IMG/VR virus record: IMGVR_UViG_3300001683_000058 | Coordinates: 23,575 to 46,632 of that record | Length of the DNA: 23,058 nucleotides | Origin: a virus | Direction: 5' to 3' (one strand) | Part shown: positions 1,478-19,792 of the stretch, piece by piece | Layout of the letters: each line of letters begins with the position of its first letter | Numbering within the stretch: position 1 is the stretch's first letter | Notes under the pieces: generated by a model | What the model saw: only the letters and a program-made list of their open reading frames with translations | The model's database searches: none | Told to the model about the DNA's origin: nothing | Translations under genes and position numbers: made by a program

Positions 1478-4400
1478 TTATTCCCCACTCAAATCGACAG
1501 TTAAATTACTATTGCCACCTTTTTTATCAACTGTGACTGAGTATGGATTTGTTTCATATATTTCTACTGCCTGAAAAACACCGTCGGGTGATTTAGCTCC
1601 ATCATTTTTACATCCTTCATATGCTAATCTAAAAAGACCTGTATGACTATTATAAACAGATTCATATTCGCTTGCAACTAGCGATGATGAATATGCTAGA
1701 CCTAATGATGCGCTTAATGATGAAGAATAAAAAGGTATTGTCTCTTGATTAAACGATGATTTTTTAGAACCAGTAACCATAGGTTGAAAATTTTCAAAGA
1801 ATACAGCAGCTCCCCCACCCATATAAACTTTAGAATCAATATAGTCACGAGCTTCTGATAGCGGATCATCAAGTGGATCTTTGTTAAATCCTTTTAATGT
1901 GGGCATATAAGTCATTGGCCCAAGTTCTGAATTAAATTTTTGGGTTTCATATTCATCTCTACTTGACTTGATTAAACCAGCTGATTGTAATGCTATCGTT
2001 GCATAATCATGTTGTGATGATGTTATTTTGCTCTCAAGTGAAGTATCATAAACTACACCAGTTCTAAATTCGTAAGAACTTTCAAATATTGGGACAACTG
2101 ATGCAGTTGCTGATGAATAATTATTTAAACCGGTGGGCTCTGGGTATATTGCATTAATTTCTGCTGTTTTTGCTATATCTGTAAATATAGGGGGCGCACC
2201 CATAACAACTTTTGGTCTTTCTAAAAGATGTGATTCTATTAATAAGCCAATATTCTTTTTAGCACGAGCCGGTGATAATTTTCTTATGTGATCAAAAAGA
2301 CTAAGATCATAATATTTTATTAATTTAATATAATCCCAAAAGCTTGATTGTGTTGTCCATTTTTTCCAATATGTGTCTGTGATTCCATCTAATTTTCCGT
2401 GGGTATACCGGTCCTCGTACATATCTCGCGGATCTCCAAGATACGATCCAAAATCTAGATCAGCTAATGATAACATGATGTCTTCATTAATAACGTCAGT
2501 TGGCGCAAAGAATATTCCCAGCTTATTAGAATCTAATCCTGCATTATCAAATGAACTTATTTCTACTCTTTCTGTTGGACTTAGTTGTGCTGGTGCACCA
2601 TCTTGTGTTTTTAGTTGAGCACTTTCAAGTCTTATTTTATTAGCTTGAGAGCCAAATCCTATTTTTGGTACAAAAGCTTTTTGTCTATCTAAAACATTAC
2701 TAAAATTGATCTCATCTGCAAAACCAGAACCTGTAACATATATTTGTCCATCTGTGAATGTGTAATCTCTTAATCCTTTTGGGCTAGAATTTAAATTAAT
2801 ATAATCGTCCATAGATAATCTAAAACTTAAGTCATAGTATGATGAGCTAGGATTATTTCCATTGACTGCTTTTGGAGCAGCAACATGATTCCAAAATGCA
2901 TCTTCCCTAAGCGGTGTTGACCAATATCTAAATTCCATCATAGATCCACTAAATTGTTCACCTATACTACCATCTGCATTTCCACCAAGATACCATCTAT
3001 TCGCTGTAGTACTACCTGTTGTGTACCATCCTGATAATGTACTTCCCGATACTGTCATGCTTCCTGATTCTTTTATTTTAATTCGATCCATTCCGGCATC
3101 GTAATATCCAAGAAACATATCAAAACTTTGTGTAGTAGCAGTCAAATCATTATCAAAATATTGATCAACATAGCTATCATCCATAGAGCCTGTTCGTCTT
3201 CTAACCATTAATGACCAGTACTCGTTATTATAAATTCCCTGATCAGTAATACTCATACTTTGCACACTGTCAGATCCGCTTACAAAAAAGTTAATTTGAC
3301 CCTTGCCATCAATAGCTTGATCAGCAGGTCCAAGTACTGCTGTAGCAATTGCACCACTGCCATCAGGAATATTCTGATGTATTGTTATTGTGGGTGCGCT
3401 AGTGTAACCAAAACCACCATTTGTCACAGTAATTCCTGTAATTCTACCATTTGCAGGATTTACAGTCGGCGTTCCCGTGGCTCCTGTTCCTCCTCCACCA
3501 GAAAATGTTACCCAAGTTTCTAATGGCAAATAATCTGATCCTACCGCGTCCATAGTCACACTACTTATAGGAGATCCAACTGTTGTCTTAAGATAAATTG
3601 CCGCCTCTGTTTTGCCACTGTTATCAAGTTTATTTGCTAAAATTTGATTTGATTCTTTGGCAACTTTAAATCTCATTTCAATAGTATCAGGTGCTTTTTC
3701 TTTTGATGTATGATACCACGGCACTTGAATAGATTGTCCTCCCTTAAAATCTAATGCCTTTGTAAATTTCTTTTTAATTTCAAAATCAGGTTTACCTGTT
3801 GGTCTTGGCCCACCGTATTCTTGAATTCTTAATATTGATGTTGGAATACCGTATGCTGCAATCAATGATTTTAAACTTTGTTTTGTTCCTTTTGACTTGA
3901 GCATATAAGGCATTGTTGCTAATATTCTATTCCATATTTCTCGCGTTACATCTTTCTGAGATTTTTTAGTATATCTAATATTATAAATTCCCGTTCTAGA
4001 ACCTGATTCTGCTAAACCTAAGTGATATTGGGGAAGCGACACAAGATCTCTACCTTCTATCATATTAAAACCAAGAGACTTTGCTACTGGCTCAACTAGC
4101 GCTTGTGATATTCCTTTTGTTACATCTTCACTTCTATCGTGTACATCTGACAATGCTTTTATATGCGTCCAAATAATATCATAATGGTGTCCCATCATAT
4201 CCATAAAATGTAGAAACTCTATATTTTCCTTATCAGTATTGATATGCTCTGGTAAAAGATTGACTAATCTATTTCTATTATTTCTGTCATAAAGACGTGC
4301 TTTTGCAATTGAACTATCATACCACGTTATGAATGCTGAACTAGTAACAGAGTATAATTTATAAGGATTTGTTAGTGTGCCATCACCGGATATTTTAGGA

Positions 4401-7400
4401 AAAGTATTTTCAAAAAATTCTCCTATTGAACTTGAAACATAAGAAGAATTTTGGAAATACATGTAGTTTTCAAAATCATCAAACTCATTAATTACTTTTC
4501 TAGTTGAAGTTTCCCACTTAATTACTTCTGTACCAGATGCACTTACTGCAGTGCCCGCTACATTACCCAAATATCCTGTTGTAGTACCTGTCCCGCTTAA
4601 TGATGCACTATTTGCTGTATACTGCTCAATATTGGTTATTTTTATTTTAAAATTATTTATTCTCTTTTCTACAGAACTAAAATGAATAAAGTTTTCATAT
4701 TGTGAATAATCTATATTAATTTTAGCATCCTCTAAGCTTCCACTTAAAATTCTATCTTCTAGTTTATCTATAACATCTTTGTCATTTCCAATTAAGTCTG
4801 TATGCGATTTATATTCTGTTGATCTATCTCTTATCGGTATATTTACATCTGACCAGTTTGGTTGTCTTAAAACTGTATCAGGAAGTTTTTCTTCAATAAA
4901 AGGATTGAGATCAATTTTTTCTCTAAGAGTGGGTGTGACTTCCTCAGCAATAAAAACTGTGTCTAATGGAGTAATCCCTGCATCAAGGGGTTTCATCAAT
5001 TTGTATGCTATGCTTCCTGGGTATACTTCAGATTTTGTTGGTTTAAAATTTACTATTAATGATTTTGAATGATCATTAGTTATTAAATATGTGTATAAAT
5101 TATCGGCATCTTTTGATCGATATCGGACAAAGTAATCATCAAAAATAGCTGTTTGTAAATTTATTGCATCTGGACCAGTCATCACAGCACCAATCTCATT
5201 TCCATATTCTTCGTACGTTTTATTAAGAACTAATTTTTTCTGTGTTTCAGAATCATTTTGAACATCTAATATTTTTCCTTCATATCTTGCATAAATATTA
5301 TCAGAACCGCTAGGTTTTGTTATATAGTCCACTGAAAATCCTGTGCTAAATGAAGAGTACTTATTTATACTGTAGCTTGATTCAATACCTCCTTGCTCAG
5401 CTGATGCTTCAGCATATGTTTTATCAACTTGAATTCTATTTTCATCAAAGATGTTTGTTATTGTAAATTCTAAATTATCTAATACTGCATTTTCCTGAAC
5501 TTCCGGACGGAGCAATGATGACTTTATAATTGTGATTTCAAACTGATCAACCCAAATTGTTCCAAAGCTGCCATAGTGTCCTCTAGTTTCTATAAAAACA
5601 TTCATGTCTAGTGCAAAAAAATCTGTAATTTCAATTTCAAAACCAACCTTTTCCCATTGATTATATTCTTCGCATATAGGATGATATATTGCTGACGGGC
5701 CGCTATTTAGTGCCTCTGTTCTATAAGACCTTTTATATAGCGTAATATTATCGCCTTCAACTTCATACTGAGTTGCCCAGTCAATTGATCCTCCATCACT
5801 AATTGTTACCCAATCATCTAGTTCTCTACTCCATTTAAAAATACCATCACTAGAAATATTTGTATTTGTTGGGTAGTCATCATAAGAAGGATACGAACTT
5901 TCAGGATATAAAACCACTCTATTTCCGCCTACTGCCCATTTCTTCCTAAAAGCATTTGGACTCATATCATCTTCACCTGGCCATTGAGCTGCCTCTAGTC
6001 TAGCTGTTGTCCAATGTCCGTGGGTTGCACCAGGGAAATCGATAATGAAAAACCACTTAAACGCATAAGACTGAGCTAATGTGCCATCGGTTGTAATATA
6101 CCAGCCGCCATAACCCACTGCCGTTTGATTATCGTAACCGTAAGTTTGAAGAAACTCATATCCTTCAGCAAGCCACTCGCTGTCCCCGTGTGGCTCAATA
6201 TCAGTCGGCTCTCTATTTATTAGTCCACCTGTGGCGACGGAATGCTCTTCATCAAATGCCGCAAAATCATCCTCACCGCCAAAGTATAAATGAAATGCAT
6301 TATCTTCTGCCCATACATCTTCATTCGTCACGCCCAAAGGCTCAGGTGGTGCAAGATCCATCGATGTCCAGTGATTTAATCCTACCCATAATCCTTTTCT
6401 TCCGCCTTGCTCAAAATCAATAGGGTCAGATTTTTGCATCCAACTAATTTTTATTTTATCTCCTGAACGAACGCCATAAGATCCTAATGAGCCAATACCG
6501 GACATACCATCTCTAGGATTGTCAATTGAATGAATCCCTAAGTTTCTATGCGCGTAAACTGATTTATTAGCAAGCATATCTTCACTTGGCATTTCTCTCC
6601 CAAGTGCATTACCAGCTGCCCTTCTTGCTGAAACAATTTGATCAAAAATATAATCTTGATAATTTAAATCTGGAAAGCACATTGCTACACCACCATTAAC
6701 ACCTTTTCCTGCACGCCATTGTGCATGATAACCTACGTCTGCTGTACCAACATATTTTCCTGACCAGGATAAGCTCGAAATTCCACTTCCCCATCGTCTA
6801 ATACCCATATCATTTGTAGTTCTTATTGATTGTGCATTTAATGCCTCATCTGGTAATGGATAATATAATGGATTGCCACCGGCGTCTCTTTTTAATTGTG
6901 AGTATTCATACGCAGCAAGAAGTTCGCCACCTTGTGTTGTATTACCAGCTGGTCCATTTGCAGCAATCATATCCCATTCATAAATATTTTCAGTATCAAG
7001 TTCTGATATTGTGAAAGCAGATGACAAGTCTAAAATAGGGTGTGCTTTATTTATAGTAAGTTTACCACCAAGCATCAATGGTGTAAATGCATCTCCATCT
7101 GTTAACTCACCTATAATTATTTTTCCATCCGGGTCATCAAATTTTAATATAGTATCTACTGCTTGTTCTACAGTTAATTCATCACCACTTCCTGCTCTAT
7201 GAAATGGTGTTACAACAGTTCCTGCTTCTAATTGAGCACCTGCTGCCAAGATAGAGTGAACGTTTACATTACTCATATCAAATGGATCCCATATATCTCT
7301 TGGGTCCCATAAAATTTGGAGTATCATCTTATTACTTAAATTTGTATCTGACAGAGTGAATGTAAAACTTTTTCTTTCCCACTCACCTGTCATTAAAAAC

Positions 7401-8821
7401 CACGGAGAATATTTAGTTGTACCAGACGGGCCCCATGGCTCTGCATGTGCCCTAAATCTTAATTTTTCTCCTGGATCACCTTTTAAATAACAACTATATG
7501 TCATTGTAAATTCTTCTGCTATTACTCCAGGAGGTAATGCAAAATATGGATTTGTCCCAAAAGACATATTGGTTTGTACAGCAGATGATATTGATAATGG
7601 TGAAGATTCGCTATAAGCACCACCACCCTCTGTTCTTAGAGTATTTAAGTATGTTGCATCATTATTTATCGGATTTTGAAATGTTGCTTTAATTGCAAAC
7701 TGTCCGGATGGATTTGGCTCTAGCACGCTCTCAAGTCTAAGTGCCTTCTTATCATCAACTTCTACAGGGTTGCTACTAAAAACTATTACTCCATCATTTG
7801 GCCAATTGCCACCGCTTCTCCAACCAAATAACGAATCCATTGTCCTACCATGAAGCAAATTAGGAGTTAGTTGAAAAATATCTGTTGACGGCTCAAATGT
7901 TTCTACGTCTCTGATCTCATCAATTATTCTTTTGCCTATGAAATAAGCATTGTTAATTCTAATAGTGCCGTTCATAAAAGTCATTGGCATATTTTTTCCA
8001 GTGGCAAACGAAAGCATATTAGAATTTGCTTGGCCGAATATTGCATTTGGTGCTGGATCTTCATCTGGAAACCAATTTATACAATTATATGCTGCAACTC
8101 TAAAATCTTCTAAATATGATTCATCATCAATAAACGCGGGGGAAAGAATAACTTCAGTTCTGTCGCCGGAAATAGATTGTAAAATAAACTTATTCTCTTT
8201 GACAAATAACTTTTCTCCTTCAGCTGTACCTGACTTTATATCATCTTGAGAAGCATAAAAATATTTATTAGGTGCTTGTTCATAGTTACCATTAAATATT
8301 TTATCATTTTCATTTACTAATATCGGAAAAGGGCTGCCCGCTTGTAATCTTAGAAAATCAAACTTAACTGAAAATCTACCTCTTCTAAAACCAAGCTCAC
8401 GTAGCATATTACCTGCATTTATTTTTATAATAGCAGGACTACCCGGCATTTCTACAGAAATGAATGAATTAATTTTATCATTCGTAAAATATTTAGATGA
8501 AATTAATCCACCATCATTACCGTATACACATACTCTAATTAAGTCTCCATTATTTGCACCAAACGCGACATCAGGCCATTTAAGAGAGCTATATTGTTCA
8601 TTTTTTAATTGGTCGTAAAACTTAACATCTCTAAATGGTGCGTAATCAAGAGTATCTGGTAATCTGATAAGATTGTAAATCTTCTCAGGTATATCTACAT
8701 CTCTATTTAACTTTTGATCTACTAAGCTATAAATTAAATTTACATCTATCGAGTCAAGTTTTGAGATTGACTGGGCTGATAATGTTTCATCTTCATTAAT
8801 ATATGATGTGTTGGCTGCCAT
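1478..8821 (-). CDS. Giant mosaic tail/baseplate structural protein (2447 aa)
   Basis: The largest gene of the window, one uninterrupted frame. About residues 330-545 resemble a carbohydrate-binding-like beta-sandwich: WERKSFTFTLSD, then QLEAGTVVTPFHR, a signature I know from phage adsorption proteins. A second such region spans about 780-1110 (GDKIKISWMQKSDP to GTIWVDQFEITIIK). Residues about 1535-1675 (FLHFMDMMGHHYDIIWTHIK, TREIWNRILATMPYMLKSKG, AYGIPTSILRIQEYGG) match a core I recall from large wedge or tail proteins of T4-like phages. A LamG-like region follows at about 1690-1985 (ALDFKGGQSIQVPW to FRYWSTPLREDAFW) and seems interrupted by a Gly-rich module. Its place directly after gp25 and gp6 corresponds to gp7/gp8 in T4, but T4 gp7 is less than half as long. 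It probably combines baseplate attachment with surface binding. The domain calls come from motif recognition, not a search. Confidence 0.85.
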   Translation of the reverse strand: MAANTSYINEDETLSAQSISKLDSIDVNLIYSLVDQKLNRDVDIPEKIYNLIRLPDTLDYAPFRDVKFYDQLKNEQYSSLKWPDVAFGANNGDLIRVCVYGNDGGLISSKYFTNDKINSFISVEMPGSPAIIKINAGNMLRELGFRRGRFSVKFDFLRLQAGSPFPILVNENDKIFNGNYEQAPNKYFYASQDDIKSGTAEGEKLFVKENKFILQSISGDRTEVILSPAFIDDESYLEDFRVAAYNCINWFPDEDPAPNAIFGQANSNMLSFATGKNMPMTFMNGTIRINNAYFIGKRIIDEIRDVETFEPSTDIFQLTPNLLHGRTMDSLFGWRSGGNWPNDGVIVFSSNPVEVDDKKALRLESVLEPNPSGQFAIKATFQNPINNDATYLNTLRTEGGGAYSESSPLSISSAVQTNMSFGTNPYFALPPGVIAEEFTMTYSCYLKGDPGEKLRFRAHAEPWGPSGTTKYSPWFLMTGEWERKSFTFTLSDTNLSNKMILQILWDPRDIWDPFDMSNVNVHSILAAGAQLEAGTVVTPFHRAGSGDELTVEQAVDTILKFDDPDGKIIIGELTDGDAFTPLMLGGKLTINKAHPILDLSSAFTISELDTENIYEWDMIAANGPAGNTTQGGELLAAYEYSQLKRDAGGNPLYYPLPDEALNAQSIRTTNDMGIRRWGSGISSLSWSGKYVGTADVGYHAQWRAGKGVNGGVAMCFPDLNYQDYIFDQIVSARRAAGNALGREMPSEDMLANKSVYAHRNLGIHSIDNPRDGMSGIGSLGSYGVRSGDKIKISWMQKSDPIDFEQGGRKGLWVGLNHWTSMDLAPPEPLGVTNEDVWAEDNAFHLYFGGEDDFAAFDEEHSVATGGLINREPTDIEPHGDSEWLAEGYEFLQTYGYDNQTAVGYGGWYITTDGTLAQSYAFKWFFIIDFPGATHGHWTTARLEAAQWPGEDDMSPNAFRKKWAVGGNRVVLYPESSYPSYDDYPTNTNISSDGIFKWSRELDDWVTISDGGSIDWATQYEVEGDNITLYKRSYRTEALNSGPSAIYHPICEEYNQWEKVGFEIEITDFFALDMNVFIETRGHYGSFGTIWVDQFEITIIKSSLLRPEVQENAVLDNLEFTITNIFDENRIQVDKTYAEASAEQGGIESSYSINKYSSFSTGFSVDYITKPSGSDNIYARYEGKILDVQNDSETQKKLVLNKTYEEYGNEIGAVMTGPDAINLQTAIFDDYFVRYRSKDADNLYTYLITNDHSKSLIVNFKPTKSEVYPGSIAYKLMKPLDAGITPLDTVFIAEEVTPTLREKIDLNPFIEEKLPDTVLRQPNWSDVNIPIRDRSTEYKSHTDLIGNDKDVIDKLEDRILSGSLEDAKINIDYSQYENFIHFSSVEKRINNFKIKITNIEQYTANSASLSGTGTTTGYLGNVAGTAVSASGTEVIKWETSTRKVINEFDDFENYMYFQNSSYVSSSIGEFFENTFPKISGDGTLTNPYKLYSVTSSAFITWYDSSIAKARLYDRNNRNRLVNLLPEHINTDKENIEFLHFMDMMGHHYDIIWTHIKALSDVHDRSEDVTKGISQALVEPVAKSLGFNMIEGRDLVSLPQYHLGLAESGSRTGIYNIRYTKKSQKDVTREIWNRILATMPYMLKSKGTKQSLKSLIAAYGIPTSILRIQEYGGPRPTGKPDFEIKKKFTKALDFKGGQSIQVPWYHTSKEKAPDTIEMRFKVAKESNQILANKLDNSGKTEAAIYLKTTVGSPISSVTMDAVGSDYLPLETWVTFSGGGGTGATGTPTVNPANGRITGITVTNGGFGYTSAPTITIHQNIPDGSGAIATAVLGPADQAIDGKGQINFFVSGSDSVQSMSITDQGIYNNEYWSLMVRRRTGSMDDSYVDQYFDNDLTATTQSFDMFLGYYDAGMDRIKIKESGSMTVSGSTLSGWYTTGSTTANRWYLGGNADGSIGEQFSGSMMEFRYWSTPLREDAFWNHVAAPKAVNGNNPSSSYYDLSFRLSMDDYINLNSSPKGLRDYTFTDGQIYVTGSGFADEINFSNVLDRQKAFVPKIGFGSQANKIRLESAQLKTQDGAPAQLSPTERVEISSFDNAGLDSNKLGIFFAPTDVINEDIMLSLADLDFGSYLGDPRDMYEDRYTHGKLDGITDTYWKKWTTQSSFWDYIKLIKYYDLSLFDHIRKLSPARAKKNIGLLIESHLLERPKVVMGAPPIFTDIAKTAEINAIYPEPTGLNNYSSATASVVPIFESSYEFRTGVVYDTSLESKITSSQHDYATIALQSAGLIKSSRDEYETQKFNSELGPMTYMPTLKGFNKDPLDDPLSEARDYIDSKVYMGGGAAVFFENFQPMVTGSKKSSFNQETIPFYSSSLSASLGLAYSSSLVASEYESVYNSHTGLFRLAYEGCKNDGAKSPDGVFQAVEIYETNPYSVTVDKKGGNSNLTVDLSGE

Positions 8822-17762: not shown

Positions 17763-18505
17763 TTGAATAGATCCTTTAGCTTGTCTGTGTCTAAATCTTT
17801 TATTAACTCTTCCTCTTTAGTTTTCCCCTTCATATATTTGGGGAAATCAATTCGCGAATCACCTGATAGCATAAATCTCTCCTTTTCTTGTCGTGCAGCA
17901 GAATTATCTGCAAATGATATTATAAGAGGTAGATTTGTCTTCATTGCTTTCCACTCTGCACCTTCCATATAATAAGATTTATTTGCTTCTGCATAAAGGC
18001 CATCAGCTAATCTAAGACCTAAATACTCTGATTCTGACATTTCTATTCCAAACTTATTAAGGAGCCAAATCGCTCTATCAGTTACTGTCATGTAATGAAT
18101 TGCAGGATTGTGTACATAATATTGTTGCAACTTTTTTGCACGCCACTCATCAGTATTTGTAATATAATAGTCTTCATCCATATTTCCTATCTTGCCCAAA
18201 TCATGAAATAAAGCTGCGAATACTACAGACTCTTCTGTAATATCGTCAACATACATTTCTTGAGACTTGAATAATTCATAATAAGATTTTGACCATTGTA
18301 TTATGTTTAGGACATGTGCAACATAACCACCTGGAAAAGCATTATGAAACCAACCTGTTCCTGAAGCAGGTGCTAGAATCATTCTATCTTTAAAGTGCTC
18401 ATGTAACTCTTTTATTTTTTCTAATCTTTCACCATCAAATGTTTTATCAATGGTGCTTTGTAACTCATCCCAGTTTATACTGATCTGTTCTGCAGTTAAT
18501 CTCAT
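17759..18505 (-). CDS. HD-domain metal-dependent phosphohydrolase-like protein (248 aa)
   Basis: The HD-superfamily metal ligands are visible: H64 in GGYVAHVLN, H101-D102 in FAALFHDLGKIG and D200 in ISFADNSAA. Extra histidines at 132 and 137 could join the site. The family hydrolyses phosphoester bonds, often of nucleotides, at a metal centre; the substrate here is unknown. An ATG at 18523 is possible, but the ATG at 18505 has AGGAG five bases upstream and overlaps the previous stop as ATGA, so it was chosen. The C-terminus is charged (EEELIKDLDTDKLKDLF). It lies between the 3D-domain gene and a membrane-protein gene. Nucleotide metabolism or defence against host signalling is possible; both are inference. 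Confidence 0.85.
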   Translation of the reverse strand: MRLTAEQISINWDELQSTIDKTFDGERLEKIKELHEHFKDRMILAPASGTGWFHNAFPGGYVAHVLNIIQWSKSYYELFKSQEMYVDDITEESVVFAALFHDLGKIGNMDEDYYITNTDEWRAKKLQQYYVHNPAIHYMTVTDRAIWLLNKFGIEMSESEYLGLRLADGLYAEANKSYYMEGAEWKAMKTNLPLIISFADNSAARQEKERFMLSGDSRIDFPKYMKGKTKEEELIKDLDTDKLKDLFK

Positions 18506-19017
18506 GCATTCTCCTGTGCCCATGGCATCTTAATAATATTACAGCCTTCAAATTTATAAGGCTTGACATGTGTGGATTCTAAAATGTCAACTACATTAAC
18601 AAATTTAGAATTCATAGTATCACGAACCTGATAAATACCATCTTTCTTGTCAGCCCCCTTAAGTAAAATATAGTCGCCGTAATCGAATGGTCCACCCCAA
18701 CGTTTCAAGAGATTTCTAGAAAGTGCAACAAATTTGTATTGTGATGCCCTCTCTACTCTAATCCTTGTTCCGTCTGCTGTGATATCGGGTGTTCTATCTG
18801 TTTGCGGCCAAATTGGTTGATACATAGTAACGTCTACTTCAATTCCATATTGGTAGAATTCATCTAGTTGATTTCGTAGTTCCTGTTTTTCATGAACTAG
18901 CGTTTCATAATAATTATGATAGATCGTTTTGTGTTTGTCCATAAAATAAGTAGATACGTAACCATTGATTATAGTTATTGTAATGACTGATAGAATATAC
19001 TTGTTTAGGTTTCGCAT
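18502..19017 (-). CDS. Membrane-anchored 3D-domain protein (171 aa)
   Basis: An N-terminal hydrophobic helix (YILSVITITIINGYVSTYF, residues 8-26) is a membrane anchor or uncleaved signal. A short helical linker is followed by a 3D domain from residue 60: VDVTMYQPIWPQTDRTPDIT, ADGTRI, VALSRNLLK, then D115 in YGDYI, D133 in VRDTMN and D144 in VVDIL. These three aspartates name the family, which has a double-psi barrel like RlpA and MltA and is linked to cell-wall cleavage. An ATG at 19083 gives 22 more residues but has no ribosome binding site; AAGGAG six bases before the ATG at 19017 decides the start. A role in lysis or envelope remodelling is inferred. It directly follows the tmRNA. Confidence 0.8.
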   Translation of the reverse strand: MRNLNKYILSVITITIINGYVSTYFMDKHKTIYHNYYETLVHEKQELRNQLDEFYQYGIEVDVTMYQPIWPQTDRTPDITADGTRIRVERASQYKFVALSRNLLKRWGGPFDYGDYILLKGADKKDGIYQVRDTMNSKFVNVVDILESTHVKPYKFEGCNIIKMPWAQENA

Positions 19018-19101
19018 GGCGTGCTCCTTGTTTATGATAGAATCTAATAACATTTTAGTATACGCGTAAAGGTTTTTTTTCATTTATTTTCATATTTTTT
19101 G

Positions 19102-19533
19102 TGGACCCGGGGAGATTCGAACTCCCGTCCGGCCTGCTATTAACAATGAGTCGTTACAGCTTAGTTAGTTTCCATCAGTAGCAACTAACAAACAACCATG
19201 TGGATTTCTTTTGCAGAACGTATCCTTTAACTGGCTTTTAGTTATACTCCAAATCACCAATGAGTTTGTGTTCAACTTATTTTATAACCGGGTGTTGAAC
19301 AACCCAGTAACTTATGCCGCGTAGGAATAAGTTGGTTGGTAAGCCAGACCTGTATCTAGTACAGGAGCAGTACTGACATTAGCTGGTACATCATACTCAG
19401 CCATATGCCAATCTATTACCAACCCGTCTAGCGAATTATCGCCATATTGGTTAGTGAACCTTTTGTCTCGAGTCTTGTTCAAACTCTGCTGCACTCAATT
19501 GTCAAAAAACACCCGTCGATACCGAGCGGGCCC
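19102..19533 (-). ncRNA. ssrA: Phage-encoded one-piece tmRNA (transfer-messenger RNA)
   Basis: The ends fold as a tRNA-like domain. GGGCCCG at 19533-19527 pairs with CGGGTCC at 19109-19103 (one G-U), with discriminator A at 19102; CCA is not encoded. The T-arm is GGGAG/CTCCC around the loop TTCGAAT (19126-19110). The conserved 5' motif GGTATCGACGGG lies at 19523-19512. Helix 2 pairs GACAATTGAGT-like sequence near 19500 with ACTCATTG near 19150. A clear pseudoknot follows the tag: CTGGGT/ACCCGG (19307-19302, 19293-19288), whose loop GTTCAAC pairs with GTTGAAC (19300-19294, 19276-19270). The tag frame ends PTYSYAA-stop, the stop being at 19314-19312. It begins only seven bases after the upstream stop, so it is probably processed from a longer transcript. 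With SmpB, tmRNA rescues stalled ribosomes and marks proteins for proteolysis. Confidence 0.95.
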
Positions 19534-19540
19534 ATTTCTT

Positions 19541-19792
19541 TTAGTCGCCCCAATTCTCAGACCATTGGTCTATATCTTCTTCTGCGGCTCTTAAATCTTG
19601 TAATAATAAATCAACAGCATCCCAATCTTTATCTTCGTATGCTGCCTCTAGTCTCATAATAATTTCTTCAAGTGAAAGCATATGATTTGCCCCTCCTATT
19701 ATATTTGACACTAAATATGGATAAGGTGCTAAATTTATTCTAGTTACTGTTGTACTTTTTGGGCTTGCTTCCCAAGGTAATATAACTTTCAT
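19541..19792 (-). CDS. Small acidic phage protein, start uncertain (46 or 83 aa)
   Basis: The C-terminal 46 residues, MLSLEEIIMRLEAAYEDKDW onwards, form a short acidic helical protein ending IDQWSENWGD; I recall similar small proteins in marine T4-like phages. GGAGGGG ten bases before the internal ATG at 19681 marks it as a good start. The frame stays open to an ATG at 19792 that directly follows the previous stop (TAA then ATG), giving 37 extra residues (MKVILPWEASPKSTTVTRIN and on). The longer range is given because a stop-free run of that length is unlikely by chance in AT-rich DNA, but both forms are possible. It ends seven bases before the tmRNA. Confidence 0.65.
   Translation of the reverse strand: MKVILPWEASPKSTTVTRINLAPYPYLVSNIIGGANHMLSLEEIIMRLEAAYEDKDWDAVDLLLQDLRAAEEDIDQWSENWGD

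Follow-up and report, generated by a model that had tools for sequence, protein, structure and literature searches.

The marine phage DNA analyzed here, a stretch of 23,058 nucleotides that we refer to as the window and that lies at the end of a virus record of 46,632 bases with T4-like baseplate genes, carries a one-piece tmRNA gene with a tag frame of 43 codons. The gene belongs to a family of viral tmRNAs in which tags of 34-43 amino acids contain an internal motif, SLxGLxIDWHLA, that is under purifying selection at the level of the peptide. Phage tmRNAs are already known; what appears to be new is a family that combines a tag of this length with a selected internal motif. Because the RNA is intact in both its tRNA-like and its mRNA-like parts and is under structural as well as coding selection, we consider it very probable, judging from comparative sequence analysis, that it is a working phage tmRNA of the standard type, which would act in host SmpB-dependent trans-translation and append an extended, composite tag.

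A one-piece tmRNA gene and its fold

The standard one-piece tmRNA model, RF00023, was the sole cmscan match above its gathering cut-off in the window (19533-19099, minus strand; 68.9 bits against a cut-off of 47 bits, E-value 3.4e-25). The match spans model positions 1-374, its full length, and none of the permuted tmRNA models of the same clan outscores it. The gene order is likewise unpermuted: the swapped halves and intervening sequence of two-piece tmRNAs are absent, and the standard model alone was reported. The complete one-piece tmRNA proposed in the sequence-only reading, together with the Infernal comparison of standard and permuted models by which it was to be checked, was therefore borne out. 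That reading had placed the gene at 19102-19533 without a strand; the location holds, but the strand is minus and the end lies at 19099 when the CCA position is counted. The gene thus occupies 19099..19533 (435 nt including a 3′ ACAA in place of ACCA), and RNA position p corresponds to window position 19534 minus p. ARAGORN, which had also been suggested as a check, called no tmRNA in the window, although RF00023 matches there. The fold is 6 standard deviations better than those of dinucleotide shuffles (z-score -6.05).

The tRNA-like domain is complete. The 5′ strand of the acceptor stem, GGGCCCG (RNA 1-7; 19527..19533, minus strand, as are all features of the RNA given below), forms seven of seven pairs with CGGGUCC (RNA 425-431; 19103..19109), and the two strands hold G3 and U70, the alanine identity pair. 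The domain also contains the GGUAUCGACGGG motif (19512..19523) and a T-arm, GGGAG-UUCGAAU-CUCCC (19110..19126). Across 76 non-redundant viral tmRNAs (sequences under 93% identical), all seven acceptor pairs form in 75 and six form in the other, while G3-U70 and the full five-pair T-stem are found in every one; both the acceptor sequences and the T-arm covary. The 3′ end reads ACAA (19099..19102), with A as the discriminator, and since CCA is not encoded, 3′ processing is required. ACAA stands in 65 of the 76 and ACCA in two; it is odd that the deviation from an encoded CCA is so uniform.

Helix 2 (H2) and two pseudoknots flank the mRNA-like region, each with compensatory changes. The 5′ strand of H2 (19488..19501) pairs with a 3′ strand at about 19144..19160. 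In pseudoknot PK1 (19455..19486; S1 GAGU/ACUC, S2 UGAAC/GUUCA) seven of nine pairs have changed on both sides, and pseudoknot PK2 (19270..19308; S1 ACUGGGU/ACCCGGU, S2 GUUCAAC/GUUGAAC), which lies directly 3′ of the tag stop, is paired in 100% of cells and shows compensatory changes in both stems. A further helix, H5, is formed within the tag frame by GGUUGGUAA (5′ strand, 19416..19424) and UUACCAACC (3′ strand, 19334..19342). H5 covaries though both its strands are translated: 8.88 of 10 positions pair, compared with 8.29 +/- 0.064 when partners are shuffled among sequences, and one of its pairs occurs as A-U, C-G, G-C and U-G across relatives. When 52 named pairs, including the pseudoknot stems, were followed through 22 diverse tmRNAs, 96.0% of cells paired and 28 of the 52 pairs had changed on both sides; sliding the partners by 1-3 columns lowered pairing to 33-41%. 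The elements listed in the earlier reading (7-bp acceptor with G3-U70, 5-bp T-stem, tRNA-like-domain motif, H2 and PK1) were all found, with compensatory changes across relatives.

A long tag frame with a selected internal motif

The first homologues occupied the same place in neighbouring contigs, with 73-100% identity and one conserved open frame, GDNSLDGLVIDWHMAEYDVPANVSTAPVLDTGLAYQPTYSYAA. A tag-profile search gave 77 viral loci and one contig from a metagenome-assembled genome (MAG). Two further scans made no use of the tag: a PK2 sequence of 26 bases gave 69 stretches of viral contigs, and H2 plus the T-arm gave 31. Every complete tag region in the PK2 set contains [IV]DW[HQ]. Among the 31 loci of the H2/T-arm set the motif was seen directly in 21, four are cut by the contig end, and for the remaining six (L134, L149, L177, L193, L196 and L201) it was seen on the same contigs through the other scans. 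Searches with the tag gave no match by tblastn in 50,697 phage records and no meaningful match in PHROGs or the PDB, and at the DNA level the whole RNA matched isolate phages only in the T-arm and other short stretches. A literature search found no tmRNA family with a 34-43-residue tag and a selected internal motif, and a text search for DWHLA was also empty.

In the window the frame runs from the resume codon GGC (RNA 91-93), 11 nt after PK1, through the whole of H5 to a UAA (RNA 220-222) just before PK2, and its 43 codons (19312..19443) close with a YAYAA-type C-terminal end. The Ala-Ala ending had been recognized from the sequence alone; the 43-codon length had gone unnoticed. All relatives keep this frame, their insertions and deletions being multiples of three, and in the 76 tmRNAs it encodes 34-43 amino acids in a single frame with no in-frame stop. 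Two subtypes can be told apart, IDWHLAEYDY... and IDWHLANxEMGFDNFVEP.... Tags of at least 36 residues (36-43) occur in 64 of the 76, which is above the 8-35 residues given in a tmRNA review (PMC8012679), a reported range rather than a defining feature of tmRNA, and in five relatives (L078, L109, L095, L167 and L205) the start has one extra codon or more, so their tag lengths are lower bounds. The commonest tag length in a 2025 tmRNA database paper is 10 amino acids (PMC11915505), and the comparison viral tmRNAs have tags of 9-13 amino acids by ARAGORN (GAYAPALAA, ANDNIEIADRAAA), in contrast to the 34-43 found here. How far upstream the frame can begin is limited by one relative (L099), in which it is closed two codons before the G. 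Selection does not pinpoint the exact first codon, since pN/pS for the opening five codons (GDNSL) alone is 0.82; that assignment relies instead on position and on a GGC that is nearly invariant.

An ordinary tag of about 11 residues would place the resume codon downstream, for example at the GGU of GDYQPTYAYAA, and would make the DWHLA region an untranslated insertion between PK1 and that codon. Such a tag resembles those of bacteria (for example GENNYALAA), and ARAGORN gives tags of this kind in many relatives: among L039-L185 it either missed the gene or cut the tag to 11-24 amino acids, mostly starting at nt 136-173. However, GDY is not conserved (relatives have VSNDQ, SRKADVQ or GSELDYQ), the GGC at nt 91 falls where ARAGORN itself starts the tags of canonical tmRNAs (nt 90-99), the frame between the DWHLA block and the tail is kept in 76 of 76, and the upstream block is under codon-level selection in that same frame. 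We consider the short tag unlikely, and the selection data contradict the downstream starts that ARAGORN assigns in relatives.

This selection was measured over the six codons of IDWHLA (IDWH[LM]A in the family; 19399..19416): across all 76 sequences pN/pS is 0.038 in the tag frame, compared with 0.52 and 1.9 when the two alternative frames are read. The full set was retrieved in part with a pattern that needs residues of the motif, so amino-acid conservation there reflects partly the choice of data and the tag-blind set is the fair test. In the 32 sequences of the tag-blind set, which still passed a peptide-level filter ([GDA]LxxDW) to which no complete locus was lost, pN/pS is 0.070 in frame versus 0.55 and 1.1 out of frame. 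At the internal motif SLxGLxIDWHLA, purifying selection acts on the peptide; for GL and QP, H5 pairing accounts for part of the conservation. What is conserved could instead be the RNA of the block, which might form a small hairpin (UUGGC/GCUGA) or bind a protein, with the peptide incidental, and RNAalifold does pair UUGGC with GCUGA inside it. We judge this very unlikely given that pN/pS rises from 0.038 in the tag frame to 0.5-1.9 in the others, and given that the motif varies at synonymous positions (ATT/ATA/ATC, CAT/CAC, TTA/TTG/CTA), the leucine codons at both first and third positions.

Phage lineage, neighbours and host

The ORF list and a comparison of loci place close genes on the same strand on both sides of the tmRNA. 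Upstream, an 83-aa ORF (19541..19792, minus strand) ends 7 nt before it and belongs to a family present in 20 of 76 loci; downstream, a 193-aa ORF (18502..19083, minus strand) starts 15 nt after it and its family is present in 43 of 76. The tmRNA is probably processed from an operon transcript. Since the downstream family recurs and most large contigs share a baseplate protein at 51% or more, the RNA belongs to what this phage lineage has inherited. In a sister group (L019-L033) the same neighbouring HD-domain gene is present and there is no tmRNA at that place, indicating that the tmRNA has been gained or lost within one lineage and is dispensable in some phages.

Two other genes of these contigs deserve mention. 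In as many as 36 of the 76 loci a peptide deformylase gene is found some 2 kb upstream of the tmRNA; the name comes from its sequence, and Pfam confirms it in 13 of 16 records. Beside the baseplate genes of the window, a single ORF of 2447 amino acids (1478-8821, minus strand) is probably a very large tail or baseplate protein.

Two isolates come closest by the baseplate protein, Microcystis phage Mel-JY01 (46.5%) and Flavobacterium phage immuto (37%); both lack a tmRNA that scores above the cut-off. The sequence-only reading had reasoned from the two-piece tmRNAs of alphaproteobacteria and picocyanobacteria that this one-piece form was not copied recently from such a host; that argument rests on an assumed host, and the nearest isolates infect Microcystis and Flavobacterium. 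Genes of the psbA type occur in 0 of 16 records, a result that neither proves nor excludes a cyanobacterial host. Among 84,980 prokaryote genomes the tag search gave one match, on a phage-like contig (L116, NHIV01000037.1) in the MAG of bacterium TMED198. TMED198 was considered as a host and rejected: the contig bears phage-family genes, a separate canonical tmRNA (tag ADYGYAAAA) belongs to the MAG itself, and L116 is probably a phage contig that was binned there.

No SmpB was found in 17 records (this one and 16 others), which include contigs of 165, 126 and 120 kb and are mostly fragments, and SmpB of the host is presumably used for rescue. The earlier proposal that the RNA gives the phage its own ribosome rescue remains the most likely role, except that host SmpB would be needed; the smpB gene that had been suggested as worth looking for elsewhere in the genome was not found in this record. 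No Lon gene was found in the phage records searched, and apart from Mel-JY01 ClpP was seen in only 2 of 14 viral contigs; no phage protease therefore stands out as a consistent partner.

Proposed function and its implications

In trans-translation a tmRNA is charged with alanine through G3-U70 and delivered by SmpB and EF-Tu, translation resumes at the first tag codon and the product is released at the stop, and ClpXP-like proteases recognize C-terminal tag ends of the kind seen here. We envision that the alanyl-tRNA synthetase of the host would charge the phage RNA through this pair and that host SmpB and EF-Tu would deliver it to a stalled ribosome, which would resume at GGC (nt 91), translate through H5 and halt at the stop just before PK2. 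With H5 inside the tag frame, the ribosome must melt this helix wholly before it reaches the stop codon. About 34-43 residues would be added, comprising the internal SLxGLxIDWHLA module and a canonical C-terminal degron of the YAYAA type that ClpXP-like proteases may recognize. Charged and used during infection, the RNA could keep phage translation going on damaged mRNAs and sustain rescue while the host supply falls. The module, in turn, could be a second docking site, for an adaptor or a protease of host or phage, that alters the fate of tagged proteins. As a tentative extension, SLxGLxIDWHLA might dock tagged proteins on a partner outside the usual ClpXP route, giving stalled products a fate chosen by the phage; that partner might be a factor of the phage itself, an adaptor from the host or a different protease.

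Two other readings concern the RNA as a whole. It could act against host tmRNA as a decoy or inhibitor, the role suggested for an RNA of mycobacteriophage DS6A that has only the tRNA-like part (PMC4131195, PMC11915505), and an RNA of that type is also present in the huge phage LR756508 (L214). We find this highly improbable, since selection maintains the whole set of mRNA-like part, resume region, tag, stop and pseudoknots. That it is the decayed remnant of a host gene acquired at an integration site can practically be dismissed: tmRNA genes are frequent integration sites (PMC11915505), but the structure is intact in 76 of 76, the neighbours are conserved in many phage contigs, and only one phage-like contig among the 84,980 prokaryote genomes has a related tag.

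The working tmRNA that we favor has much in common with the bacterial tmRNAs of RF00023, including a tRNA-like domain with G3-U70, H2, PK1, a resume codon near nt 90, a hydrophobic tag end, a stop and PK2. It differs in its tag of 34-43 residues (usually about 10), a frame that passes through the whole of H5, the internal SLxGLxIDWHLA and the replacement, in most cases, of ACCA by ACAA. Mycobacteriophages Bxz1 and Wildcat, Bacillus phage G and phage Melnitz are likewise tailed phages with a tmRNA gene, that of Melnitz being two-piece, unlike the one-piece form described here. Such genes had been called uncommon in the sequence-only reading, but they are not that rare: a survey found them in 402 of 18,146 phage genomes, and 50 of its 53 two-piece phage tmRNAs were marine or aquatic (PMC9004378).

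Long tags have a bacterial counterpart in Mycoplasma, where they are about 27 residues and have a YAFA-type end, similar to the YAYAA-type end found here. These extended tags, too, may bear more than one recognition element. They are recognized by Lon (Ge and Karzai 2009, as cited in PMC11986505), whereas the phage records searched here yielded no Lon. The huge phage LR756508, an uncultured phage of 484 kb, resembles the present family in having a related baseplate protein (39%) and a long candidate tag. Its full tmRNA of 447 nt (L211, LR756508.1 92434-92880) has a candidate tag of about 36 amino acids, GVNNADYESAGFTAEDFAQMDGESLYHGSERKPAAV (GVNNADY...KPAAV), that is unrelated in sequence and lacks DWHLA, and it is a single example with a candidate frame. 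The same phage also carries L214, a 112-nt tmRNA that consists of a tRNA-like domain only (LR756508.1 414804-414915) and is akin to that of DS6A.

These findings bear on how tmRNA genes are recorded. ARAGORN cuts or misses genes of this kind, and phage ribosome rescue is therefore probably under-recorded; some recorded tags may be wrong, and annotations of long-tag tmRNAs that are based on ARAGORN will carry wrong tags. They also bear on what a tag is for. The usual view takes tmRNA tags to be short degrons at the end of a protein, typically of about 10 residues; in the present case an entire phage lineage has retained tags three to four times that length. A segment inside the tag is under strong selection as protein, within an RNA that must fold too. 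This points to tags being able to serve a second function, and the phage seems to mark unfinished proteins with an unusual label of its own.
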